From contig CM055912.1 of assembly GCA_029582155.1 (NCBI GenBank), positions 1,860,001 through 1,924,000 of the forward strand: a DNA stretch of 64,000 nucleotides, given 5' to 3'. Origin of the DNA: Panopea generosa (taxonomy: Eukaryota; Mollusca; Bivalvia; Adapedonta; Hiatellidae). Below, one piece after another: positions 1 to 63,000 of the stretch. Position numbers and translations under genes: made by a program. The notes below the pieces were generated by a model, which was not told where the DNA came from, made no database searches, and saw only the letters and a list, made by a program, of their open reading frames with translations. The stretch's first letter is position 1. Each line of letters starts with the position of its first letter.

Positions 1-103
1 CCCCTTCATCAGAGGACTCATTCAAACTCAGATCCAGATCAGACTCGGAAAACCCTGCGAAATCAGACTCATCGGAGTCTCTATCAAAGATACGGTCAGC
101 CAT
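1..103 (-). CDS. First coding exon of an unidentified acidic protein (partial, runs off left edge)
   Basis: On the minus strand an ATG at 103 opens a frame that stays open to the window edge (34 codons). It starts MADRIFDRDSDESDF and continues as a Ser/Asp/Glu-rich, probably disordered segment. A consensus acceptor (ATATTTAG, AG at 106-105) sits one base before the ATG. A strong donor (GTAAGTTT, GT at 289-288) lies 185 bp upstream, so the layout is a 5'UTR exon, a short intron, then this coding exon. The function is not recognised. It is on the same strand as the Trio-type exons to its right and, if those belong to an active gene, it sits inside one of that gene's introns. It could be a nested host gene or the gene of a mobile element. 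The gene start is well supported; identity is unknown. Confidence 0.6.
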   Translation of the reverse strand, partial: MADRIFDRDSDESDFAGFSESDLDLSLNESSDEG

Positions 104-104
104 A

Positions 105-289
105 CTAAATATGTAATGCAATTAAAACTAATTATAGCAATTAGACATAATGGTCAGGTGTTCAAAAACGAACTAAAAGTGCATTTAAAATCATCTCATT
201 AAATACCCAATCGAACATTTTTAATCTTTAAAACACAGCGAGACACTTTTTTAATCTTTCTAATTGGCAAATAGATCAAAAAAACTTAC
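105..289 (-). other. Predicted 5'UTR intron of the left-edge gene
   Basis: GT-AG intron of 185 bp. The donor reads ATTG then GTAAGTTT, and the acceptor ATATTTAG lies directly before T-ATG. The interior is AT-rich with no conserved open frame. Inferred from splice consensus only. Confidence 0.5.
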
Positions 290-545
290 CAATCCTAAGG
301 GTTTTATTACCCCTTGTATAGTCCAGTAAGGCATCATGATATATCAATCCACACCATAATACACACGAACGTGTGTCAGCTGTGGAAACATAACAGCTTC
401 AAAAGTGTGCCGAAACGTCGGCTTGCGTGTAAACAAATCAATTCTCGTGTCAAAGATCGAAGGTCACATAGGATGTAAAGTTTAACAATTAACTACTTGG
501 TGATTATTTGACCCTGATTTATTTTTAGATTCCCGCGCAAATCAT
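290..545 (-). promoter_or_regulatory. 5'UTR exon and promoter region of the left-edge gene
   Basis: This region precedes the predicted donor at 289 and is richer in CpG than its surroundings. It holds an E2F-like site (TTCCCGCGCAAA, 530-541), an inverted ACACGAACGTGTGT at 362-375, and a nuclear-receptor-like half site AAGGTCA near 470. No TATA box stands out. The transcription start cannot be placed from sequence; 300-540 is an estimate. Confidence 0.35.
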
Positions 546-783
546 GGAAAATTCCAGCAGTTTACATCATGCAACTGGGCGATGACCTCGCTTGATCACG
601 CATGACCCGTATGTTCGATTAGACGCTATTTTTATAAAAACTTTAAATAGTAACACTATGATGTCATGGGTAATTTTACTTGGGGAAATGTTATTTTACA
701 CAAATGTAAACTTCCTGTCACGAAAAATTAATTTTATGTGTGTTATTTTTGAGATTGAAATACACAGGCGTGAATTGTGATCA

Positions 784-1043
784 TGAGGCTATCGATAGAG
801 GCATGGAAAGTCGTCTCTGAGAGGCTGTCGATACAGGCGTGAAAAGTCGTCTCTTAGAGGCTTCCGATACAGGCGCGAAAAGTCGTCTCTGAGAGGCTGT
901 CGATACAGGCGTGAAAAGTCGTTTCTGAGAGGCTGTCGATACATGCTTGAAAAGTCGTCTCTGAGAGGCTGTCGATACAGGCGTGAAAAGTCGTCTCTGA
1001 GAGGCTTCCAATACAGGCGTGAAAAGTCGTCTCTGAGAAGCAT
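784..1043. repeat. 36-bp tandem repeat, about 7 copies
   Basis: The units contain GTCGATACAGGCGTGAAA followed by AGTCGTCTCTGAGAGGCT. GTCGTCTCT-like words recur at 810, 846, 882, 918, 954, 990 and 1026, an exact 36-bp period. Because 36 is divisible by three, all three minus frames stay open and give 12-residue periodic peptides (RDDFSRLYRQPL); I do not regard these as genes. It is more GC-rich than its flanks. Confidence 0.9.
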
Positions 1044-1049
1044 AGGGTT

Positions 1050-1725
1050 AATGCCATTTTAATACATTACAATTCATATAAAGAGTATCCAGTATTATAG
1101 GGAGGAATAAAAACCTAAGATGCATAAAACATGGATGAGCAAAGTCTTTTTGTTTGTAAATGGAACAAACATTCTCCCTTATAATCTGTACGACAAAGCC
1201 ATGGCCTTGGCGGAGTTGAAAGTTATTTTTAAACTGCATTTTAAAACACAAAGCCCTTCTTTAACCTGACATTGGCTGTCAATCAAACATGTTGATAATC
1301 TAATTAATGATCAATATTGGTTGCTACATTTCCTTGGACAAGATCACAAGTTTAAGTAAATGCTATATTGTACACACAATGGCAAGTGGTCAGTGGGCCT
1401 AGCTATAGTCGTTCTCGTATCAGGTCAATTAGTTGAAAATGAGACATCTAAATACCTGTAATGCTTTTAGTATGTGTTTAACAATCTGCCAGGTGGATCC
1501 TCGCATATCCAGAATTATGGTAAACCCCTTCTCTCGGACATCATCACTGAAATACGGACAGAGAAAAATAAGTTTTGAAGGTTTCTTGAAGATTATAGAA
1601 AGCAATGACTATCCATTTATCCGATATACACTTTCAATCTTTTCTTGTAGAGATGAAAGGTTACCAAACATGCAATATGTTTGAAAGATTAAAAGTGCTA
1701 TTCTAAAATGCTGTTTCTGCTTTTA
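1050..1725. other. Unannotated AT-rich stretch
   Basis: No splice-bounded exon or recognisable protein was seen. An 83-codon plus-strand frame at 1433-1684 has no recognisable domain and is probably chance. Confidence 0.4.
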
Positions 1726-2423: not shown

Positions 2424-2538
2424 CTTGGTACACTGGCCAGGTAGGTCATTAGATGTTTCAGGTCCTCATATTTCAAATGTTCCGGATGTGTGTGCGTCGG
2501 GAAGGTCAGAATGGGTCCACCTCGCTTGTCTCGACCAC
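2424..2538 (-). CDS. TRIO-like: Trio/Kalirin-type RhoGEF, Sec14-domain exon (exon B)
   Basis: A 115-bp minus-strand exon. The acceptor is TTACTTGCAG (AG at 2540-2539) and the donor is CCAAG|GTGAGTTG (GT at 2423-2422). With the G carried over from exon A it reads GGRDKRGGPILTFP, then THTHPEHLKYEDLKHLMTYL and ASVP, ending in a split codon (AG) that gives Ser or Arg. GGRDKRGGPILTFP is the signature of the N-terminal Sec14/CRAL-TRIO domain of Trio and Kalirin, multidomain guanine-nucleotide exchange factors for Rac and RhoG that act at the plasma membrane and cytoskeleton. The residues after it diverge from vertebrate Trio, but the LxxLxxYLAxxP pattern is kept. The exon end fits the known protein, where IPS-EE follows. 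The next exon must lie left of position 1. Confidence 0.9.
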
Positions 2539-5500
2539 CTGCAAGTAACGTAAACGACCATTTTCTAAACATCTGTACAACTCAAACCGTATCAAGAAGT
2601 AAAGTAAACTGTGACAATGACCCCCCAACTTCATCAGCCATGAGTTGAGCCTTGCCTGGTCTGCAAACTTTATGTGAGAAAGTTTCTCAGAGTTTTGTTG
2701 CAGAAAGGTTGTTCTGCTCAGATTCATTACAAGGTCTTTCTCCGCTAATAAAACTGGATATGCTATATATAACCTGAAATGTGCTGAAAATGAAGTTAAA
2801 CCCATTCTATGTAGTTCATGTATGTACTGAATGATGCAATATGTGAAAATGAGTGAAATTTAACCATACGTGTCACAAAATTAGTGAGAGTTTCTGAATT
2901 CTATTACGAATCCAAAGATGATGAGTTAATGCCTTTTCAGTCTTCAATCTAACGAATATGCCACCCTCTCCCTCAAGATGAGCTAGACAAAATATAACCT
3001 GACAAAATGCCACCCTCTCCCTCAGAATGGGTACAATACAATATTTTACCTGACAAATATGCCACCATCTCCCTCAAGATGAGCTAGGTAAAATATAACC
3101 TGACAAAATCCCATCCTCTCCCTCAGAATGGGTACAATACAAAATTATACCTGACAAATATGCCACCCTCTCCCTCAAGATGAGCTAAACAAAATATAAC
3201 CTGACAAAATGCCACCCTCTCCCTCAGAATGAGAACAATACAAAATTATACCTGACAAATATGCCACCCTCTCCCTCAAGATGAGGAAGTCTTAATATTA
3301 CCTGACTAATATGCCACCCTCTTCCTCAAGATGAGCTAGTTTAACTATTACCTGACAAATATGCCACCCTCTCCCTCAAGATGAGCTAATCTAAATATTA
3401 CCTGACAAATATGCCACCCTCTCCTTCAAGATGAGCTAGACAAAATATTACCTGACAAATATACCACACTCTCCCTCAAGATGAGCTAGTCTTAATATTA
3501 CCTGATAAATATACCAGCCTCTCTCTCAAGATGAGCTAGACAAAGTAATATCTGACGGATATACCACCTTCTCCCTCAAGATGAACTAGTCTAAATATTA
3601 CCTGACAGATATGCCACCCTCTCCCTCAAGATGAGCTAGTCTAAATATTAGCTGACAAATATGCCTGCCTCTCCCTCAAGATGAACTTGTCTAAATATTA
3701 CCTGACAAATATACCATCGTTTCTCTCAAGATGAGCTAGTCTAAATATTACCTGACAAATATACCATCATCTCCCTCAAGATGAGCTAGTCTAAATATTA
3801 CCTGACAAAAATACCACCCTCTCCCTCAAGATTAGCTAGTTTAAATACTACCTGACAAATAAGCCACCCTCTCCCTCAAGATGAGCTAGTCTAAATACTA
3901 GCTGCCAAAAATACCACCCTCTCCCTCAAGATTAGCTAGTTTAAATACTACCTGACAAATAAGCCACCCTCTCCCTCAAGATAAGAACTAGTCTAAATAT
4001 TACCTGACAAATATGCCACCCTCTCCCTCAAGATGAGCTAGTCTAAATATTACCTGACAAATATACCACCCTCTCCCACAAGATGAGCTAGTCTAAATAT
4101 TACCTGACAAAAATACCACCCTCTCCCTCAAGATTAGCTAGTCTAAATATTACCTGACAACCATGCCACCATCTCCCTCAAGATTAGAGCTAGTCTAAAT
4201 ATTACCTGACAAATATGCCACCCTCTCCCTCAAGGTGAGCTAGACAAAATATTACCTGACAAATATACTGGCTTCTCCCTCAAGATGAGCTAGACAAAAT
4301 ATTACCTGACAAATAAACAATCCTCTCCCTCAAGATGAGTTAGACAAAATATTACCTGATAAATATACCACCCTCTCCCTCAAGATGAGCTAGTCTCAGT
4401 TTTACCTGACAAATACACCACCCTCTCCCTCAAGATTAGCTAGTTTAAATATTACCTGACAAATATGCCACCCTCTCCCTCAAGATTAGAGCTAGTCTAA
4501 ATATTACCTGACAAATATGCCACCCTCTCCCTCAAGGTGAGCTAGACAAAATATTACCTGACAAATATATGGCTTCTCCCTCAAGATGAGCTAGACAAAA
4601 TATAACCTGACAAATATACCATCCTCTCCCTCAAGATGAGTTAGACAAAATATTACCTGATAAATATACCACCCTCTCCCTCAAGATGAGCTAGTCTCAG
4701 TATAACCTGACAAAAACACCACCCTCTACCTCAAGATGAGCTAGATAAAGTATTACATCATAAATATGCCACCCTTTCCCTCAAGATGAGCTAGTCTCAA
4801 TATTGCCTGACAAATATACCACCCTCTCCCTCAAGTTGAGCTAGACAAAATTTTACCTGACAAATACGCCACCCTCTCCCTCTAGATGAGCTAGACAAAA
4901 TATTACCCAACATATATACCATCCTCTCTATCAAGATAAGATAGACAAAATATTTTCTGACCAATATGCCACCATCTCCCTCAAGATGAGCTAGACAAAA
5001 TATATCCTATATGCCACCATCTCCCTCATGATATGGACAAAACAAAATATTACCTGACAAATATGCCACCCTTTCCCTCAAGATGAGCTAGACAAAGTAT
5101 TACCTGGCAAATATACAATCCTCTCCCTCAAGATGAGCTAGACAAAATATTACCTGACAAATATGCCAACCTCACCCTCAAGATGAGCTAGACAAAATAT
5201 TACCTGACAAATATGCCAACCTCTCCCTCAAGATGAGCTAGACAAAGTATTACCTGACAAATATACTACCCTCTCCCTCAAGATGAGCTAGACAAAGAAT
5301 TACCTGACAAATATAAAATCCTCTCCCTCAAAATGAGCTAGACAAAATATTACCTGACAAATATGCCAACCTCTCCCTCAAGATGAGCTGGACAAAGTAT
5401 TACCTGACAAATATACCTTCCTTTCCTTTAAGATGAGTTAGACAAAATATTACTTGACAAAAGTATGCCATCCTCTCCCTCAAGATCAGCTAGACAAAAT

Positions 5501-6050
5501 ATTACCAGACAATTATGCCCCCCCCTCTCCCTCAAGATGAGATAGCCAAAGTATTACCAGACAAATATGCCACCCTCTTCCTCTAGATGAGCTAGACAAA
5601 ATATTACCTGACATATATACCATCTCTCTATCAAGATGAGATAGACAAAATATTTTCTGACAAATATGCCACCCTCTCCCTCAAGATAAGCTAGACAAAG
5701 TATCACCAGACAAATATACCACCCTCTCCCTCAAGATGAGCTAGACAAAATATATCCTATATGCCACCCTCTCCCTCATGATGGACAATACAAAATATTA
5801 CCTGACAAATATGCCACCCTCTCCCTCAAGATGAGCTAGACAAAGTATTACCTGACAAATAAGCCACCCTCTCCCTCATGATGGAAATACAAAATATTAC
5901 CTGACAAATAAGCCACTCTGTCCCTTGTGATGGCCAATACAAAATATTACCTGACAAATAAGCCACCCTCTCCCTCATGATGGACAGTACAAAATATTAC
6001 CTGACAAATATGCCACCCTATCCCTCATGATGGACAATACAAAATAATAC
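2539..6050 (-). other. Intron between Trio-type exons A and B
   Basis: A 3,512-bp GT-AG intron in phase 1 (S-G split: TCA G | GT GGT). About 90% of it is the 50-bp array at 2953-6095. Positions 2539-2952 are unique AT-rich sequence with no further exon seen. Confidence 0.85.
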
Positions 6051-6095
6051 CTGACAAATATGCCACCCTTTCCATCAGGATGGGTACAATATCAA
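2953..6095. repeat. 50-bp minisatellite, about 60 copies, derived from Trio exon A plus its splice donor
   Basis: On the plus strand the unit runs through TACCTGACAAATATGCCACC then CTCTCCCTCAAGATGAGC and TAGTCTAAATAT. On the minus (gene) strand each unit carries GGGTGGCATATTTGTCAG followed by GTAATATT. That is the last 18 bases of exon A plus a 5' splice site. The true exon end at 6051 is simply the rightmost unit. Several units near the opposite end (about 3000-3045, 3105-3150 and 3205-3250) keep GGGTACAATA on the plus strand and would encode VPIL(R)ER, matching exon A VPILMER better than mid-array units do. A second variant near exon A has TCATGATGGACAATAC. The period is 50 (atgccaccct at 3311, 3361 and so on), with occasional short indels. 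Confidence 0.9.
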
Positions 6096-6131
6096 CTGCC
6101 TTCAGTACATGTACCTCAGTCCTGCGACCAC
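6051..6131 (-). CDS. TRIO-like: Trio/Kalirin-type RhoGEF, N-terminal exon preceding the Sec14 core (exon A)
   Basis: An 81-bp minus-strand exon. The acceptor is strong, with a long T-rich tract ending TTTTGTTTTCAG (AG at 6133-6132). The donor is TTGTCAG|GTATTATT (GT at 6050-6049). Reading with two carried-in bases gives GRRTEVHVLKAVDIVPIL then MERVAYLS and a split Gly codon completed by exon B. The protein ...DIVPILMERVAYLSG-GRDKRGG matches the Trio/Kalirin N-terminus, where a DVLP-I/L-LKEKVAYLSGGRDKRGG run is conserved. Phase 1 on both sides. An upstream exon is required because the first codon is split and no ATG is in frame early. Its 3' half is homologous to the 50-bp array that follows it. 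Confidence 0.88.
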
Positions 6132-6270
6132 CTGAAAACAAAAACAAAAATAAAAATAAACTGCAGTCACTGCATTAAAAGCCCAAGAGCTTAAAAAATC
6201 TCAACTAAAGAAAGGAGAGAAGGGTTGGGAGTGTTTATTGGATTATCATACTGCCTACTTGATTAATGAA
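6132..6270 (-). other. Polypyrimidine tract and branch region of Trio-type intron 1
   Basis: The minus strand shows an uninterrupted T-rich run of about 30 bases before the acceptor of exon A (plus strand AAAACAAAAACAAAAATAAA). This is a good splice acceptor context. Confidence 0.6.
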
Positions 6271-6275
6271 AAAAA

Positions 6276-6505
6276 CATAGTCAAACCTGTGGAAGTGGTC
6301 ATCTCTATTAAGCAGCCACTTGTCTTAAGCAGTCACATTTGCTTTTTCCCATTTTTATGTTTTCAGTGTAAATCAACCTGTATTATATAAGCAACAAAAT
6401 TTTTTTTTTTTTATCTTTTATATAATCAATATCAATGACACCATAATTATGTAGTTTTACTGGAACCAGTCTAAAATCATGATCACCTGGCTGCTTTTAA
6501 GTATA
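6276..6505. mobile_element. Diverged MITE related to the TACAGTCAAACC family
   Basis: Begins ATAGTCAAACCTGTGGAAGT and contains TTAAGCAGCCACTTGTCTTA, the same internal words as the element at 36834-36997. The right terminus is not recognisable. Confidence 0.4.
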
Positions 6506-6814
6506 TGTTGGTGAATAAGGAGCCAGATTCTTTGAAAAAAAAAGAAAGGGGGAAAACACTGTAAATCCAAATTAGGAATTTAAATCTTCCAGAGACCTTT
6601 TACAAATTTTTATGGCAATGAAGCTTTATAACAGAGACTAGAAATGTGTCTGAAAACATGAATACCCCTGCTATTGATCCGCATGAATGAATAAATGAAT
6701 GAATGAACAGGGTTTTTCAATGCTAACAGGAAAGAAGATTCCAGGTTCAATCTACATGTACAAAAACAACAAATTAACATACAGATTAAAAAAAAATACA
6801 TTAACAAATGAATA

Positions 6815-7030
6815 TGCAGAATGAAACTAGAACCCTAATACCTGCAGAACTGCAAAGCTTCAGCAAATTCTATCGTATTACTCAAATTGTTGCTTCCTAT
6901 GACATGCATGAGTCACAGTGATCCTATTCTTGCCATCACTCATATGGCTCCCTGTTACCACACAGCGGTTGGTAATTTAACCATGATAGTGAACATGACA
7001 AAATATGATAACATATTGAATGAACATGAC
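6815..7030. repeat. Dispersed repeat, copy 1 (partner at 45330-45560)
   Basis: Shares long runs with 45330-45560 in the same orientation: CACAGTGATCCTAT, CTCATATGGCTCCCTG, GTTGGTAATTTAACC and ATACCTGCAGAACTG. Both copies keep, on the minus strand, CAGTTCTGCAG followed by GTAT, which resembles a splice donor. No convincing shared protein. Unclassified. Confidence 0.6.
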
Positions 7031-7224
7031 ACCTATTCTTAGCTGGAACCACACAGGGGGCTGCTATTGACCAGAAACAAATTGTGTAAAAAACGCGCCA
7101 TAACTTCCATAAAATCTGACAGACGTTGACAAACATCAAACTTGCCCTGTATTTTATAACTAAACACATAAGGTACCCACAAAATATTCACACATAGACC
7201 CTTTCACCATTCATCCCCACCCCG

Positions 7225-7428
7225 CCAGTCTCCGTGATGGTTGATATACGACATTGCGTTTCATTATCATCATCTCCTAGTTATCAGTTACTTGCGGAGA
7301 TTAGGTGTGCTCGAGTACGGGTTAACCTTCCAGGATCCCAGGAAAGAGTGGTTAGCTTAACTGATCATCTTTTAGCCCTTGATGGCATAAAAATGATGCT
7401 AAAAGTTCAATCAATCAATCAATCAAAT
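7225..7428 (+). mobile_element. SINE family A, 5'-truncated copy
   Basis: Has the body words GTGATGGTTGATATACGACA, CTTGCGGAGATTAGGTGTGC, TTAACCTTCCAGGATCCCAG and TTAGCCCTTGATGGCATAAA, and ends in (TCAA)n. The same body occurs at 9889, 16657, 21211, 30068, 47761, 51874 and 53065. The tRNA-like head is missing here. Confidence 0.8.
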
Positions 7429-8258
7429 GTGTGTGTGTGGTGGGGGGTATAAAATCATGATTTTTTAGGTTTGGGGGACAAGACAGGATTTTTGCTTTGG
7501 GCAAGATGATGAATATCAAAGAATGGAAAAGGAGACCCTGTTTTTTTACCAAAAGCACATAATATCATAATATTAAGGCCCTGATATTGTCGCTTGTGCA
7601 TAATTTGCTACAGTTTATATATAAAAGAGCATCTAAGTTAAATGTAATCAAATGTCACAGACATCATCATAGATCAGCTGTACAACGCATCTCCAGTACC
7701 AGACAAACTTACACAGAATAGTTTACGAGTAACCTAATTGTGGTAAATGGTTCCAATTTAGATGAAACTTTTATACCATTAATCTGGTAGATGAAAGTGA
7801 TTAAAGTCGACATACAGCAAAACTCTGAGTTGCTAAGTGATACAAGCATAACGAGCATGTTTTAGTCTGTCTCACACACAAGGCAGTGTTTTTTTTAACC
7901 ATTTTGGGTAGATGACCCATATCCTTGGAATTGGGAATTTTAGCAGCATTTTCATTAAATTTGGGAAAACTTTTGCATTAAATATATTTGTTCAACTTCA
8001 TAAAAATGTGTACATTTGCCTCTCTTGCCATTTAATTGAAGATTCAATATCATACTCAATTCAGAATGGGGAAAACTTTGTTTATTTTATCAAGGAATTA
8101 TGGCAAGTTTCAATTAATAATTATTGAAGCTTTCAATTGGGAATTTTTACCACTAAATTGGGAAAAAAAATATACTATTTGCCATTGGGAATATGACCCA
8201 ATAACGGCTATAAAAATGGCCAAAAAAAAAAATTGCAAGGAGACAAAAAGATGGACCA
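7429..8258. other. Unannotated AT-rich stretch
   Basis: No gene seen. The minus strand has a donor-like GTAAGTTT near 7712 after a 34-codon open frame, but it lacks a matching acceptor or recognisable protein, so no exon is called. Confidence 0.35.
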
Positions 8259-36997: not shown

Positions 36998-37794
36998 CTT
37001 GTTATATTTTGGTACAGTATACTAGAGTAAGTATCCATCATGAGTATCGGGTATATAACTGAGATAACAAGCTTCCAACCCCAGTATCTCTGTGTTTATA
37101 GAATGTCTGGAGACCTCTGTTCTAATAAAATGAAACATTCTGCTCATAGAAGTTGAGTGTTTTCCCAATGGAGGAAAGTTCTATCTTTCATGTTTTCTTT
37201 CTCACATTCCCTGACAAAAATCTTTGATGAAATCTATTTGTGACATCTATTTCCTTATCCACAAATGGTCATCATATTGAGATGTTGTCCTTCTCATTGC
37301 TTAGTATTATGATAACTAGGTATAGTTGAAGTTAAATTTGAAGTGTAATATTTAAACAATGTCCAAGTAGATTAACTGGTTTCATTTCTGGTACATTTTA
37401 GTATGTATTTTTAAATGTCGATTTCTTCATAGTAATATCTATAAAATTTTGGGTGTTAAACACGCATTTAAAATGTTTGTGATGACGACCATTATCAAGG
37501 AACTTGGCAAGAGCCTCGTCCCTGCATCTAATTTTAACCCCTTATGAGAATTTTTTCTAGCACGGATACTCACGACAGATTTTTATAATCTGAATCTAAT
37601 ACTCAGAAATGAATCTTATAGTACACCATTTTTAAAGTTACAAGTTTGTTTTCCAATTAAACAGCTGCTTTTTACCATCAATTTTTGGGAATGATATGAC
37701 CTTCTTTAAAATCATTAAGAATTTTACAGTTATTTAATTTCATAACTTACCTAAAAGTGGCCTCACCTATACCATTGATATTTTTTCAGTTATA
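36998..37794. other. Unannotated AT-rich stretch
   Basis: No exon called. A minus donor-like TTTTAG|GTAAGTTATG (near 37750) has no coding sequence before it. Confidence 0.3.
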
Positions 37795-39132
37795 TGTTAA
37801 AGCTGAGCCACCACACTGCCTGATAAATTACAGCTGAGCAACAACATGGCCTGATATATTACAGTTGATCAACCACACGGCCTGATATATTACAGCTAAG
37901 CCACCACACTACCTGATAAATTACAGCTGAGCCACAACATGGCCTGATATATAACAGTTGATAAACCACATGGCCTGATATATAACAGCTGAGCCATCAC
38001 ACAGCCTGATATATTAAAGCTGAGCCATCACACAGCCGGATATATTACAGCTGAGCCACCACACTGCCTGATATATTACAGCTGAGCCACCACACTGCCT
38101 AATAAATTACAGCTGAGCCACAACATGGCCTGATATATTACAGCTGAGCCACCACACGGCCTGATATATTACAGCTGAGCAACCACACTGCCTGATAAAT
38201 TACAGCTGAGCAACAACATGGCCTGATATATTACAGCTGAGCCATCACACTGCCTGATATATTACAGCTGAGCCACCACATGGCATGATATAATACAGCT
38301 GAGCCACCACACTGCCTGATATATTACAGCTGAGCCACCACACCGCCTGATATATTACAGATAAGCCAACAAACCACCTGATATATTACAGCTAAGCCAC
38401 CACACAGCCCGATATATTACAGCTGAGCCACCACACCACCTGATATACTACAGCTAAGCCACCACACTGCCTGATATATAACAGCTGAGCAAAAATATGT
38501 CCTGGTATTTTACAGTTGATCAACCACACTGCCTGATATATTACAGCTGAGCCACCTCACTGCCTGATATATTACAACTGAGCCACCACACCACCTGATA
38601 TATTTCAGCTGAGCCACCTCACTGCCTAATATTTTACGGCTGAGTCATAACATGGCCTGATATATTACAGTTGATCAACCACATGGCCTGATATATTACA
38701 GCTGAGCAACCACACTGCCTGATATATAACAGCTGAGCCACAACATGGCCTGATATATAACAGCTGAGCCACCACACGGCTTGATACATTACAGCTCGGC
38801 CACCACACCACCTGGTATATTACAGCTGAGCCAGCATATTGCCTGATATATTACAGCTGAGCCATCACACTGCCTGATATATTACAGCTGAGCCACAACA
38901 TGGCCTGATACATTACAGTTGATCAACCACATGGCCTGATATATTACAGCTGAGCCATCACACTGCCTGATATATTACAGCTGAGCCACAACATGGCCTG
39001 ATATATAACAGCTGAGCCACCACACGGCTTGATACATTACAGCTCAGCCACCACACCACCTGATATATTACAGCTCAGCCAGCACACTGCCTGATATATT
39101 ACAGCTGAGCCACAACATGGCCTGATATATTA
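37795..39132. repeat. 31-bp tandem repeat, about 43 copies
   Basis: The unit is GAGCCACCACACTGCCTGAT then ATATTACAGCT. Variants alternate ACACTGCC, ACATGGCC and ACACCACC, giving local higher-order patterns. It joins the next array directly at about 39133. Confidence 0.95.
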
Positions 39133-42100
39133 CAGTTGAATGGACCTTACAATGCAGAAAGTACTGTATATACTTGCAGAAAGCACTGTATATTTATATA
39201 TCAGGTGTGGTCCAATGGCGGATTGCACCAGTAAATGGACCTAACAATGCAAAAAAAACTGTAACTTTATATATCAGGTGGGTCCAATGGTGGATTGCAC
39301 CAGTAAATGGACCTAACAATGCAGAAAGTACTGTATATTTATATATCAGGTGAGGGCAAATGGCGGATTGCACCAGTAAATGGACCTTTCAATGCAGAAA
39401 GCACTGTATATTTATATATCAGGTGTGGTCCAATGGTGGATTGCACCAGTAAATGGACCTAACAATGCAGAAAACACTGTATATTTCTATATCAGGTGTG
39501 GTCCAATGGCGGGTTGCACCAGTAAATGGACCCAACAATGCAGAAAGTACTGTAGATTTCTATATAAGGTGAGGGCCAATGTCCGACTGCACCAATAAGT
39601 GGACCTAACAATGCAGAAAGTACAATATATTTATATATCAGGTGTGGTCCAATGGCAGATTGCATCAGTAAATTGACCTTACAATGCAGAAAGTACTGTA
39701 TATACTTGCAGAAAGCACTGTATATTTATAATTTTATATATCAGGTGTGGTCCAATGGTGGATTGCACCAGTAAATGGACCTAACAATGCAAAAAGCACT
39801 GTATATTTCTATATCAGGTGTGGTCCAATGGCGGGTTGCACCAGTAAATGGACCCAGCAATGCAGAAAGTACTGTAGATTTCTATATCAGGTGAGGGCTA
39901 ATGTCGGATTGCACCAGTAAATGGACCCAACAATGCAGAAAGTACTGTATATTTATATATCAGTTGTGGTCCAATGGCGGATTGCACCAGTAAATGGACC
40001 TTACAATGCAGAAAATACTGTATATACTTGCAGAAAGCACTGTATATTTATATATCAGGTGTGGTCTAATGGCAGATTGCACCAGTAAATGGACCTAACA
40101 ATGCAGAAAGCACTGTATCTTTCTATATCAGGTGTGGTCCAATGGCGGATTGCACCAGTAAATGGACCTAACAATGCAGAAAGTACTGTATATACTTGCA
40201 GAAAGCACTGTATATTTATATATCAGGTGTGGTCCAATGGCGGATTGCACCAGTAAATGGACCTTACAATGCAGAAAGTACTGTATATACTTGCAGAAAG
40301 CACTGTATATTTATATTTCAGGTGTGGTCCAATGGCGGATTGCACCAGTAAATGGACCTAACAATGCAGAAAGCACTGTATCTTTCTATATCAGGTGTGG
40401 TCCAATGGCGGATTGCACCAGTAAATGGACCTAACAATGCAGAAAGTACTGTATATACTTGCAGAAAGCACTGTATCTTTCTATATCAGGTGTGGTCCAA
40501 TGGCAGATTGCACCAGTAAATGGACCTAACAATGCAGAAAGTACTGTATATACTTGCAGAAAGCACTGTATATTTATATATCAGGTGTGATCCAATGTCG
40601 GAATGCACCAGTAAATGGACCTAACAATGCAGAAAGTACTGTATATTTATATAAAAGGTGTGGTCCAATTGCAGATTGCACTAGTAAATGGACCTTACAA
40701 TACAGAAAGCACTGTATATTTATATATCAGGTGTGGTCCAATGCCGGATTGCACCAGTAAATGGACCTAACAATGCAGAAAGCACTGTATATTTCTATAT
40801 CAGGTGAGGGCCAATGTTGGATTGCACCAGTTAATGGACCTAACAATACAGAAAGCACTGTATATTTATATTTCAGGTGTGGTCCAATGGCGGATTGCAC
40901 CAGTAAATTTATATAACAATGCAGAAAGCACTGTATCTTTCTATATCAGGTGTGGTCCAATGGCGGATTGCACTAGTAAATGGACCTAACAATGCAGAAA
41001 GCACTGTATATTTATATATCAGGCAAGGGCCAATGGCGGATTGCACCAGTAAATGGACCTTACAATGCAGAAAGCACTGTATCTTTCTATATCAGGTGTG
41101 ATCCAATGGCGGAATACACAAGTAAATGGACCTTACAATGCAGAAAGCACTGTATATTTCTATATCAGGTGTGGTCCAATGGTGGATTGCACCAGTAAAT
41201 GGACCTAACAATGCAGAAAGCACTGTATATTTCTATATCAGGTGTGGTCCAATGGCAGATTGCACCAGTAAATTTATCTAACAATGCAGAAAATACTGTA
41301 TATTTCTATATCAGGTGTGGTCCAATGGCAGATTGCACTAGTAAATGGACCTAACAATGCAGAAAGCACTGTATATTTATATATCAGGCAAGGGCCAATG
41401 GCGGATTGCACCAGTAAATGGACCTTACAATGCAGAAAGCACTGTATCTTTCTATATCAGGTGTGATCCAATGGCGGAATACACAAGTAAATGGACCTTA
41501 CAATGCAGAAAGCACTGTATATTTCTATATCAGGTGTGGTCCAATGGCGGATTGCACCAGTAAATGGACCTAACAATGCAGAAAGCACTATATCTTTCTA
41601 TATCAGGTGTGGTCCAATGGCGGGTTGCACCAGTAAATGGACCTAACAATGCAGAAAGCACTGTATATTTATATATCAGGTGTGGTCCAATGGCAGATTA
41701 CACCAGTAAATTTATCTAACAATGCAGAAAATACTGTATATTTCTATATCAGGTGAGGGCAAATGGCTGAGTGCACCAGTAAATGGACCTTTCAATGCAG
41801 AAAGCACTGTATATTTATATATCAGGTGTGGTCCAACGGTGGATTGCACCAGTAAATGGACCCAACAATGCAGAAAGCACTATATCTTTCTATATCAGGT
41901 GTGGTCCAATGGCGGGTTGCACCAGTAAATGGACCCAACAATGTAGAAAGAACTGTAGATTTCTACATCAGGTGAGGGCCAATATCGGATTGATTGCACC
42001 AGTAAATGGACCTAACAATGCAGAAAGTACTGTATATACTTGCAGAAAGCACTGTATATTTATATATCAGGTGTGGTCCAATGTCGGATTGCACCAGTAA

Positions 42101-44765
42101 ATGGACCTAACAATGCAGAAAGCACTGTATATTTATATATCAGGTGTGTTCCAATAGCGGATTGCACCAGTAAATGGACTTAACAATGCAGAAAGTACTT
42201 ATATACTTGCAGAAAGCACTGTATATTTATATATCAGGTGTGGTCCAATGCCGGGTTGCACCAGTAAATGGACCTAACAATGCAGAAAGTACTGTGTAGT
42301 TCTATATCAGGTGAGGGTCAATGTTGGATTGCACCAGTAAATGGACCTAACAATGCAGAAAATACTGTATATTTATATATAAGGTGTGGTCCAATGGCAG
42401 ATGGCACCAGTAAATGGACCTTACAATGCAGAAAGCACTGTATATTTATATATCAGGTGTGGTCCAAAGCCGGATTGCACCAGTAAATGGACCTAACAAT
42501 GCAGAAAGCACTGTATCTTTCTATATCAGGTGTGGTCAAATGGCGGATTGCACCAGTAAATGGACCTAACAATGCAGAAAGTACTTATATACTTGCAGAA
42601 AGCACTGTATATTTATATATCAGGTGTGGTCCAATGCCGGATTGCACCAGTAAATGGACCTAACAATGCAGAAAGTACTGTGTAGTTCTATATCAGGTGA
42701 GGGTCAATGTTGGATTGCACCAGTAAATGGACCTAACAATGCAGAAAATACTGTATATTTATATATAAGGTGTGGTCCAATGGCAGATGGCACCAGTAAA
42801 TGGACCTTACAATGCAGAAAGCACTGTATATTTATATATCAGGTGTGGTCCAAAGCCGGATTGCACCAGTAAATGGACCTAACAATGCAGAAAGCACTGT
42901 ATCTTTCTATATCAGGTGTGGTCAAATGGCGGATTGCACCAGTAAATGGACCTAACAATGCTGAAAGTACTGTATATATTTGCAGAAAGCATGTATATGT
43001 ATATATCAGATGTGGTCCAATGCCGGATTGCACCAGTAAATGGACCTAACAATGCAGAAAGCACTGTATATTTATATATCAGGTAAGGGCCAATGGCGGA
43101 TTGCACCAGTAAATGGACCTAACAATGCAGAAAGCACTGTATATTTATATATCAGGTGTGATCCAATGGCGGATTACACAAGTAAATGGACCTTACAATG
43201 CAGAATGCACTGTTTATTTCTATATTAGGTGTGGTCCAATGGCGGATTGCACCAGTAAATGGACCTAACGATGCAGAAAGCACTGTATATTTCTATATCA
43301 GGTGTGGTCCAATGGCAGATTGCACCAGTAAATGGACCTTACAATGCAGAAAGTACTGTATATTTATATATCAGGAGGGGGCAAATGGCGGATTGCACCA
43401 GTAAATGGACCTTTCAATGCAGAAAGCACTGTATATTTATATATCAGGTGTGATCCAATGGCGGATTGCACCAGAAAATGGACCTTACAATGCAGAAAGC
43501 ACTTTATATTTATATATCAGGTGTGGTCCAATGGCGGAGTGCACCAGTAAATGGACCTTACAATGCAGAAAGCACTATATCTTTCTATATCAGGTGTGGT
43601 CCAATGGCGGGTTGCACCAGTGAATGGGCCCAACAATGTAAAAAGTACTGTAGATTTATATATCAGGTGAGGACCAATGTCGGATTGCACCAGTAAATGG
43701 ACCTAACAATGCAGAAAGTACTGTATATACTTGCAGAAAGCACTGTATATTTATATATCAGGTGTGGTTTAATAGCGGATTGCACCAGTAAATGGACCTA
43801 ACAATGCAGAAAGCACTGTATATACCTGCAGAAAGCACTGTATATTTATATATCAGGTGTGGTTTAATAGCGGATTGCACCAGTAAATTAACCTAACAAT
43901 GCAGAAAGCACTGTATCTTTCTATATCAGGTGAGGACCAATGTCGGATTGCACCAGTAAATGGACCTAACAATGCAGAAAGTACTGTATATACTTGCAGA
44001 AAGCACTGTATATTTATATATCAGGTGTGGTTTAATAGCGGATTGCACCAGTAAATGGACCTAACAATGCAGAAAGCACTGTATATTTATATATCAGGTG
44101 TGGTCCAATGCCGGATTGCACCAGTAAATGGACCTTACAATGCAGAAAGTACTGTGTAGTTCTATATCAGGTGAGGGTCAATGTTGGATTGCACCAGTAA
44201 ATGCAGAAAATACTGTATATTTCTATATCAGGTGTGGTCCAATGGCAGATTGCACCAGTAAATTTATCTAACAATGCAGAAAGTACTGTATATTTCTATA
44301 TTAGGTGTGGTCAAATGGCGGATTGCACCAGTAAATGGACCTTAAAATGCAGAAAGCACTGTATATTTATATATCAGGTGAGGGCCAATGTCGGATTGCA
44401 CCAGTAAATGGACTTAACAATGCAGAAAGTACTGTATATTTCTATATCAGGTGTAGTCCAATGACAGATTGCACCAGTAAATGGACCTTACAATGCAGAA
44501 AGTACTGTATATACTTGCAGAAAACGCTGTATATTTATATATCAGGTGTGGTCCAATGGCGGATTGCACCAGTAAATGGACCTAACAATGCAGAAAGCAC
44601 TGTATATTTATATATCAGGTAAGGGCCAATGACGGATTGCACCAGTAAATGGACCTTACAATGCAGAAAGCACTGAATCTTTCTATATCAGGTGTGGTCC
44701 AATGGCGCATTGCACCAGTAAATGGACCTTACAATGCAGAAAGCACTGTATATTTATATATCAGT
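39133..44765. repeat. 73-bp satellite-like array, about 75 copies, with higher-order structure
   Basis: The unit is TGGACCTAACAATGCAGAAA then GCACTGTATATTTATATATC, AGGTGTGGTCCAATGGCGGA and TTGCACCAGTAAA. A subset carries an internal duplication (GTACTGTATATACTTGCAGA then AAGC). Another subset has CAGGTGAGGGC or CAGGCAAGGGC instead of CAGGTGTGGTC. Blocks of five units are duplicated about 365 bp apart (40980 and 41345) and about 386 bp apart (42268 and 42654) with almost no change. Open frames through it are artefacts of the period. 5.6 kb, the largest feature in the window. Confidence 0.95.
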
Positions 44766-61299: not shown

Positions 61300-61781
61300 T
61301 TTGAGTGCTCAAAATAAAAAAATAACACACACAACAAGTCCTACTCTGTTTGAAATGAACACAGATATATTATCTTATATATATATAAAATGAAAATAAA
61401 ATGACAGATGAAAGGATATGTGTACAGAGTTTGGTCAAAATTGTTGTGAGTCCCTTTAATTTGAGGATGAAAGGGTATGTGTACAGAGTTTGGTAAAAAT
61501 TGTTTTGAGTCCCTTTAATTTGATGATGAAAGGATATGTGTACAGAGTTCGGTAAAAATTGTTTTGTGTCCCTTTATTTTGAGGATGAAAGGATATGTGT
61601 ACAGAGTTTGGTAAAAATTGTTTGAGTGATCAAAATAAAAAAATAACACACACAGCAAGTCCTACTCTGTTTGAAATGAACACAGATATATTATCTTATA
61701 TATATATAAAATGAAAATAAAATGACAGATGAAAGGATATGTGTACAGAGTTTGGTCAAAATTGTTGTTAATCCCTTTAAT
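61300..61781. repeat. About 322-bp segmental duplication at the array edge
   Basis: 61300-61459 and 61622-61781 share TTGAGTG-TCAAAATAAAAAA, CACAC-CAAGTCCTACTCTGT, TTGAAATGAACACAGATATA and (TATA)n then AAATGAAAATAAAATGACAG, followed by the first 60-bp units. Confidence 0.85.
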
Positions 61782-63000
61782 TTGAGGATGAAAGGATATG
61801 TGTCCAGAGTTTGGTAAAAATTGTTTTGAGTCCCTTTAATTTGAGGATGAAAGGATATGTGTACAGAGTTTGGTAAAAATTGTTTTGAGTCCCTTTAATT
61901 TGAGGATGAAAGGATATGTGTACAGAGTTTGGTAAAAATTGTTTTGTGTCCCTTTAATTTGAGGATGAAAGGATATGTGTACAGAGTTTGGTAAAACTTG
62001 TTTTGTGTCCCTTTACTTTGAGGATGAAAGGATATGTGTACAAAGTTTGGTAAAAATTGTTTTGAGTCCCTTTAAGTGGACAATGAATGGATATGTGTAC
62101 AGAGTTTGGTAAAAATTGTTTTCTGTCCCTTTAATTTGAGGATGAAAGGATATGTGTACAGAGTTTGGTAAAATTGTTGTGAGTCCCTTTAATTTGAGGA
62201 TGAAAGGATATGTGTACAGTTTGGTAAAAATTGTTTTGTGTCCCTTTAATTTGAGGATGAAAGGATATGTGTACAGAGTTTGGTCAAAATTGTTGTGAGT
62301 CCTTTAATTTGAGGATGAAAGGATATGTGTACAGAGTTTGGTAAAAATTGTTTTGTTTCCCTATAATTTGAGGATGAAAGGATATGTGTACAGAGTTTGG
62401 TAAAAATTGTTTTGTGTCCCTTTAATTGGAGAATGAAAGGATATGAGTACACAGTTTGGTAAAAATTGTTTTGTGTCCCTTTAATTTGAGGATGAAAGGA
62501 TATGTGTACAGAGTTTGGTAAAAATTGTTGTGAGTCCCTTAATTTGAGGATGAAAGGATATGTGTACAGAGTTTGGTAAAAATTGTTTTGTTTCCCTTTA
62601 ATTTGAGGATGAAAGGATATGTGTACAGAGTTTGGTAAAAATTGTTTTGTGTCCCTTTAATTGGAGGATGAAAGGATATGTGTACAGAGTTTGGTAAAAA
62701 TTATTTTGAGTCCCTTTAATTTGAGGATGAAAGGATATGTGTACAGAGTTTGGTCAAAATTGTTTTGTGTCCCTTTAATTTGAGGATGAAAGGATATGTG
62801 TACAGATTTTGGTAAAAATTGTTTTGAGTCCCTTTAATTTGAGGATGAAAGGATATGTGTACAGAGTTCGGTAAAAATTGTTTTGTGTCCCTTTAATTTG
62901 AGGATGAAAGGATATGTGTTCAGAGTTTGGTAAAAATTGTTTTGAGTCCCTTTAATTGGAGGATGAAAGGATATGTGTACAGAGTTTGGTAAAAATTGAC
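61397..63000. repeat. 60-bp tandem repeat, about 25 copies
   Basis: The unit is TTTGAGGATGAAAGGATATG then TGTACAGAGTTTGGTAAAAA and TTGTTTTGTGTCCCTTTAAT. The period is a multiple of three, so minus frames give a 20-residue repeat (THILSSSN...); not regarded as coding. Confidence 0.95.

Follow-up and report, generated by a model that had tools for sequence, protein, structure and literature searches.

In the 64,000-nucleotide window analysed here (the whole stretch C19:1860001-1924000, within a searched assembly of 1.474 Gb in 39 contigs), the last bases of an exon of a Trio/Kalirin-type gene and the splice donor that follows them recur dozens of times in the next intron, raising the questions of how such an array arose and of what so many potential donors mean for splicing. 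The explanation that accounts best for the findings overall, and that we consider highly probable, is that the array was born from the end of the exon, grew and was dispersed through the genome, that the copy in the window is rearranged, and that the array is tolerated in the copy of the gene on contig C18.

Array units and the end of exon A

Analysis of exons A to C of the window (Table 1) revealed a match to the Sec14 domain of Kalirin (7ur2_A, E 1.8e-33) in a single alignment spanning both exon junctions, so that the Sec14-like domain found at the N terminus of Trio and Kalirin is present in the window copy; Pfam CRAL_TRIO and CRAL_TRIO_2 gave matches on these exons only below the cut-offs. 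Exon A is bounded by the acceptor TTTTCAG and the donor CAG/GTATTA (a slash marks the exon/intron junction in splice motifs). In the intron that follows, Tandem Repeats Finder reported an array at 2955-6082 with a period of 50, 62.5 copies and 83% matches, which agrees with the definition of a minisatellite given in PMC11506328, head-to-tail units of 10-100 bp. A wrap-around parse starting from the exon tail resolved the tail followed by 62 units, the final one partial, in agreement with the array of about 60 intronic copies reported in the preliminary description of this DNA.

Table 1. Positions of features in the window and of the C18 GEF exons, and numbers of exon A copies by contig. Positions are those of the window unless a contig is named.
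Feature	Position or count	Strand	Evidence and remarks
Exon A, Trio/Kalirin-type copy	6131-6051 (81 bp)	minus	GRRTEVHVLKAVDIVPILMERVAYLS(G); Kalirin Sec14 match jointly with exons B and C
Exon A 5' splice site, CAG/GTATTA	6042..6053	minus	
Exon A tail, 40 bp, homologous to the repeat unit (first copy)	6051..6090	minus	wrap-around parse and shuffle test
Minisatellite, 62 units of ~50 bp (exon tail and 12 intronic bp)	2955..6050	minus	repeat finder and parse
Distal edge of the array	2955..3239	minus	units 57, 59 and 61: exon-like start ATTGT(A/T)C(C/T)CATTCTGAGGGAGAGG
Exon B (GGRDKRGGPILTFPTHTHPEHLKYEDLKHLMTYLASVP)	2424..2538	minus	Kalirin match
Exon C (DDVREKGFTIILDMRGSTWQIVKHILKALQ)	1456..1546	minus	Kalirin match
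End of homology to Trio copies	1..1045	none	then 36-bp minisatellite 785-1038, piggyBac-like flank, inverted D-F
C18 RhoGEF exons	C18:52455862 and C18:52620362	plus	RhoGEF search
Exon A copies, several per contig	at least: C26 3, C20 5, C21 4, C24 5, C13 2		
Exon A copies, one per contig	at least: C5, C8, C9, C10, C16, C17, C18, C19, C25		

The units resemble the end of the exon. When the last 40 bases of exon A were compared with the array without gaps, 32/40 agreed at the best position, against an average of 20 and at most 27 in 2000 shuffles; for the first 41 bases the best value was only 19/41. These values bear out the proposal that the unit is homologous to the exon end plus donor and that the real exon end is the first unit, the repeated segment consisting of 40 bp of exon and 12 bp of intron. 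At the far end of the array units 59 and 61 retain GTACCCATTCTGAGGGAGAGG, and unit 61 still spells VPILRERVA, as had been noted, within the open reading frame at 2873-3073; the last unit closes with CATATTCGTTAG, after which comes ATTGAAGACTG. One 26-mer had been thought to occur in every unit, but exact copies of GGGTGGCATATTTGTCAGGTAATATT number 8 in the array. Near-identical decoy donors had also been described, which holds insofar as CAG/GT is present in 47/62 units and GT in 53/62, but the commonest decoy, CAG/GTAATA, is stronger than the true donor, and 45 of the 62 decoys score above the latter (rough scores, obtained with a human-type matrix). Elsewhere in the window, at 37792-44764 and 61407-62998, there are further large arrays, with units of 31, 73/95 and 59 bp.

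Copies of the segment across the assembly

Dispersal of the array to at least 28 places formed no part of the preliminary description. A search of the assembly with the array returned 350 matches, and those listed fell, by inspection, into 28 clusters, every one of which adjoins Trio exons; no cluster lying away from Trio exons was seen among these matches. In one of the 28, on C12, the array is accompanied by later exons but exon A is absent. When the body of exon A with its upstream intron was used as the query, the end of exon A was located in at least 28 copies, including that of the window, on 14 contigs (Table 1), a lower bound because 40 of 5685 candidates were scored. Among the 18 loci of 10 kb that were fetched, 17 contain exon A and 14 contain exon B, and over 19 arrays the size ranged from ~6 units (C12) to ~150 (C26). 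The upstream flanks of the copies on C10, C17 and C25 are 99-100% identical to the C21 flank, and the corresponding arrays comprise 123, 114 and 126 rows, with 128 in C21. Eleven of the places are on large contigs (C5, C8, C9, C10, C12, C13 twice, C16, C17, C18 and C19), and seven of these are no more than 4 Mb from the end of their contig, a cut-off chosen afterwards.

The copies vary in how much of the gene they retain. A frame-shifting deletion or a stop in exon A, B or C was found in at least nine of the 18 fetched loci (L011, L013, L015, L016, L017, L018, L019, L022 and L026). Four copies on C24 have exons A-F colinear, with exon B matching in two frames, and exons A, B, C, E and F follow one another in order on both C16 and C8, the C8 copy having a stop in F.

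In the window copy, position 1045 marks the end of homology to the Trio copies, as seen in the five fetched ones that extend so far. A piggyBac-like transposase frame (DDE_Tnp_1_7, E 3.4e-51) sits between exon C and exons D-F, which are inverted and lie beyond the frame on the opposite strand (F at C19:1855378, part of E at 1853811 and D at 1850833); the first part of exon E is lost. The window copy does not run intact into the following exons and GEF domains, D-F being inverted and E truncated, and none of the 34 RhoGEF matches found is on C19. The Trio-type gene first recognized here is thus confirmed for exons A-C, which match Kalirin, but not for D-F, which are inverted with E partly lost. 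From this arrangement the window copy is probably non-functional as Trio, and because the copy is rearranged its splice choice probably matters little, although a short product may be made from exons A-C, all of which are open. The same inverted order of D-F is seen in three copies on C26, suggesting that the inversion is probably older than the split between these copies and that on C19; the rearranged copies, three on C26 and one on C19, seem to have been duplicated later.

The piggyBac-like frame was noted in examining window positions 1-1045 and a fetched locus at C19:1852001-1860000 (L029), and an open frame from MADRIFDRDSDESDF, at about window position 103 on the minus strand, may be the start of the piggyBac-like transposase. 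The 36-bp minisatellite at 785-1038 (7.1 copies, 90% matches) lies right at the end of the homology.

On C18, exons A-F are colinear and open as exons, and two RhoGEF exons lie 86 kb and 251 kb past exon F on the same strand as A-F. Their best PDB matches are different chains, 7sj4_A (E 1.4e-15) and 6d8z_A (E 1.5e-11), both belonging to Triple functional domain protein, the second match being narrowly ahead of RhoGEF 25 (E 1.5e-11 versus 2.1e-11). We take the two exons to encode GEF1 and GEF2, the first and second GEF domains of Trio. Two Trio-type GEF domains are therefore found downstream of the C18 copy, which is the only copy found with such exons among the 34 RhoGEF matches; none of the 34 lies near another copy, the nearest being 1.8 Mb off on C13, in a search that sees only well-scoring exons.

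Decoy donors in the C18 gene

It is in the C18 gene, whose array has 16 units and not 60, that the question of decoy donors arises. Fourteen of these 16 units keep GT and 11 carry a donor that agrees with the true one at all nine bases compared. Among the 13 arrays examined with both ends present, none is shorter. It had been proposed that use of a decoy adds multiples of 50 nt and usually shifts the frame. The effect would not be merely a frame shift, since the frame of the exon, continued beyond the donor, runs into a TGA that ends 26 nt further on; this holds for 14 of 17 copies, that on C18 among them (in L024 the stop is at 104 nt; L011 and L012 were not parsed). The TGA falls inside the first added unit, so that use of a decoy in the C18 gene would insert an in-frame stop in the mRNA. 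For this reason the array is most likely tolerated in the C18 gene: the true donor is followed by 11 decoys that equal it over nine bases, and exon definition would select the first donor, since it is this donor that delimits the 81-nt exon.

If decoys had been selected for or against, their donor positions might be expected to differ from the other positions. In 1342 units pooled from the arrays (rows of fewer than 38 letters were left out), column conservation was 0.875 for GT, 0.90 for CAG, 0.90 for exonic positions, 0.918 for positions +3 to +6 and 0.842 for the last intronic positions. In these pooled data the donor columns therefore show much the same conservation as the other parts of the unit, and neither conservation nor purging of donors, considered as signs of function, gave a clear signal. 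This pattern is what passive turnover, in which decoys are neither removed nor maintained, could give, and lends no support to the earlier suggestion that the array is a length-dependent regulator of the gene.

Comparison with published systems showed that the phenomenon has a known relative in human IFI6 (6-16), which is the closest known case. The minisatellite of this gene supplies several splice donors, two of its downstream units being used (Turri, Cuin and Porter 1995; PMC4526556). The two loci are alike in having a minisatellite with multiple donor sites, and donor-like sequence is likewise found here in repeat units at an exon end, in the form of the 47/62 window units with CAG/GT and the 11/16 C18 units that match the true donor. 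In IFI6, however, downstream units are reported to be able to serve as donors, whereas the Trio units are candidate donors, ~50 bp in length and derived from exon plus donor, whose use would add a stop; furthermore, unlike the array described in that report, the Trio array is dispersed with its host segment. The 38-bp repeats in intron 6 of TERT also form an intronic array of variable copy number and affect splicing (PMC3948165), but their distance from the exon-intron junctions exceeds 1 kb and, as the title of the report indicates, they act via RNA pairing, whereas the units described here are copies of a donor. Among the matches listed in our literature search, none described, for Trio or for a bivalve, an array of donors derived from an exon.

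These precedents, the use of two downstream IFI6 units as donors and the effect of the TERT repeats on splicing, lend some plausibility to functional decoys in C18, in which case some transcripts would use a decoy, gain the TGA and be degraded, and the length of the array would set Trio output. Such a role would agree with the nine-base identity of 11 of the 16 C18 decoys to the true donor and with the stop that ends 26 nt beyond that donor; the shortness of the C18 array would agree as well if length matters, although one array proves little. Nevertheless, GT columns with a conservation of 0.875, compared with 0.84-0.92 elsewhere in the unit, argue against it, and we consider it unlikely. Quite unlikely, too, is that the array of the full-length Trio gene acts as a length-dependent dial, in which identical donors would compete, a share of decoy choices would meet the TGA and the number of units would set the amount of functional Trio. 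Such a dial fits the fact that none of the 13 complete arrays examined is shorter than that on C18, and, if the dial were real, the dispersed copies would provide neutral controls of array drift without that role.

Whether or not decoys are ever chosen, the arrangement bears on how donors are recognized. A classic way to probe how the spliceosome decides between equal donors is to present it with a single 5' splice site copied in tandem. The C18 Trio gene appears to be a natural test of this kind, with a true donor and 11 decoys identical over nine bases, set at ~50-bp steps, and a stop that would mark every wrong choice.

Origin of the array

Comparison of the exon with related proteins indicated the direction in which the array arose. 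Named vertebrate Trio/Kalirin proteins align with up to 99-100% of the exon A-F peptide, as does P0001, a 74%-identical sequence known as protein only, whose exon tail LKAADIVPILRERVAYLSG is identical to the C18 reading. Because the exon tail is conserved with vertebrate Kalirin, the exon came first and the array was derived from it, consistent with the coding sequence being ancestral, as first proposed. The converse, that the array overwrote the exon, was rejected in view of the conservation of the tail in Kalirin and P0001.

The other copies of exon A also resemble the units. In the 17 other fetched exon A copies the donor reads CAG/GTAATA in 16, like the commonest unit, and CGG/GTAATA in one, and in other copies the exon tail plus donor has the commonest unit form. 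The GTATTA donor of the window was seen in none of these 17, and its ATGGA is shared with four fetched copies (L009, L010, L020 and L025). In addition, likeness to the exon declines away from the array ends, with a negative correlation in 18 of 19 arrays and p < 0.05 in 12 of 19, although the arrays are related and the tests are not independent (unit rows of fewer than 38 letters were again left out). Highest likeness near the ends is what would be expected from old edges and a turned-over middle. Together, the Kalirin conservation and the exon-like edge units support an origin of the array from the end of Trio exon A, in line with the exon-seeded birth of a satellite suggested at the outset. 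Trees were made for the flanks only, one of 18 rows and one of 13; the units, which at 50 bp carry little signal for a tree, were instead compared with the exon according to their position.

One feature counts against birth by simple tandem duplication, which does not predict it: the last unit stops exactly at the coordinate of the exon/intron junction. The distal end is kept in 14 of the 19 arrays, namely that of the window (at ~2953) and those of 13 fetched loci; it is lost in L022, L023, L025 and L026, and L024 has an assembly gap (500 N) at this place. In all 14, the 12 intronic bases are missing after the last unit: the unit closes with CAG or TAG, ATTGAAGAC comes next (in four arrays, ATTAAAGAC), and the junction reads ATT(G/A)AAGAC where GTAATATTTTGT would stand. 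A plain tandem duplication would leave the 12 intronic bases in place, so that one must assume either that a deletion placed precisely on the junction came later or that the array was born by a different mechanism.

We propose that a segment of an ancestral Trio gene, made up of the last part of exon A and the 12 intron bases next to it, was duplicated in tandem, probably by slippage or unequal exchange, giving rise to the minisatellite. Units in the middle would then have turned over, with edge units keeping more of the exon form. Later the array-bearing part of Trio was dispersed to at least 28 genomic places, one of them, in rearranged form, being that of the window. Such a history is similar to intron gain by tandem duplication, as it has been described, in that duplication across an exon/intron boundary multiplies splice signals, but there one duplication leads to a new intron, whereas here dozens of units lie within an intron. 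If this history is correct, the locus would offer a clear example of a minisatellite born from the end of an exon and spread as a passenger on duplicated segments, reaching lengths of ~6 to ~150 units.

Because the array matches listed all lie beside Trio exons, the array was most likely born once, in the ancestral Trio gene, and then spread as a passenger with the Trio segment. It is very unlikely that the array is instead an independent dispersed repeat, for example Helentron-like cargo, that landed beside the exon end or overwrote it. Its presence on many contigs is compatible with such a repeat, and in the oyster Crassostrea gigas satellite-like repeats are carried by Helentrons (PMC7492417), a case that is similar in that tandem arrays are spread genome-wide as passengers. 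The carrier here, however, is a duplicated gene segment in which up to six exons were found; moreover, the exon tail is conserved across animals, 0/28 clusters among the matches listed lie away from Trio exons, and many copies extend well past the array, through exons B to F.

Least probable of all is that each unit is a recursive splice site, with TTTGTCAG/GTAATA serving as acceptor and donor at once, for although the unit has AG/GT at one point and an A/T-rich stretch ahead of it, the stretch before AG is short and interrupted by purines, a weak acceptor context, and the AG/GT site shows no special conservation.

A second array, with 47-bp units, is present in intron B-C of other copies, for example with 60 copies in L011, at 5081-7904. 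We considered it as a parallel exon-seeded case and dropped it, as its unit is unlike exon B by eye. The window is without this array, and its homology to the other copies breaks at 1865/1871.
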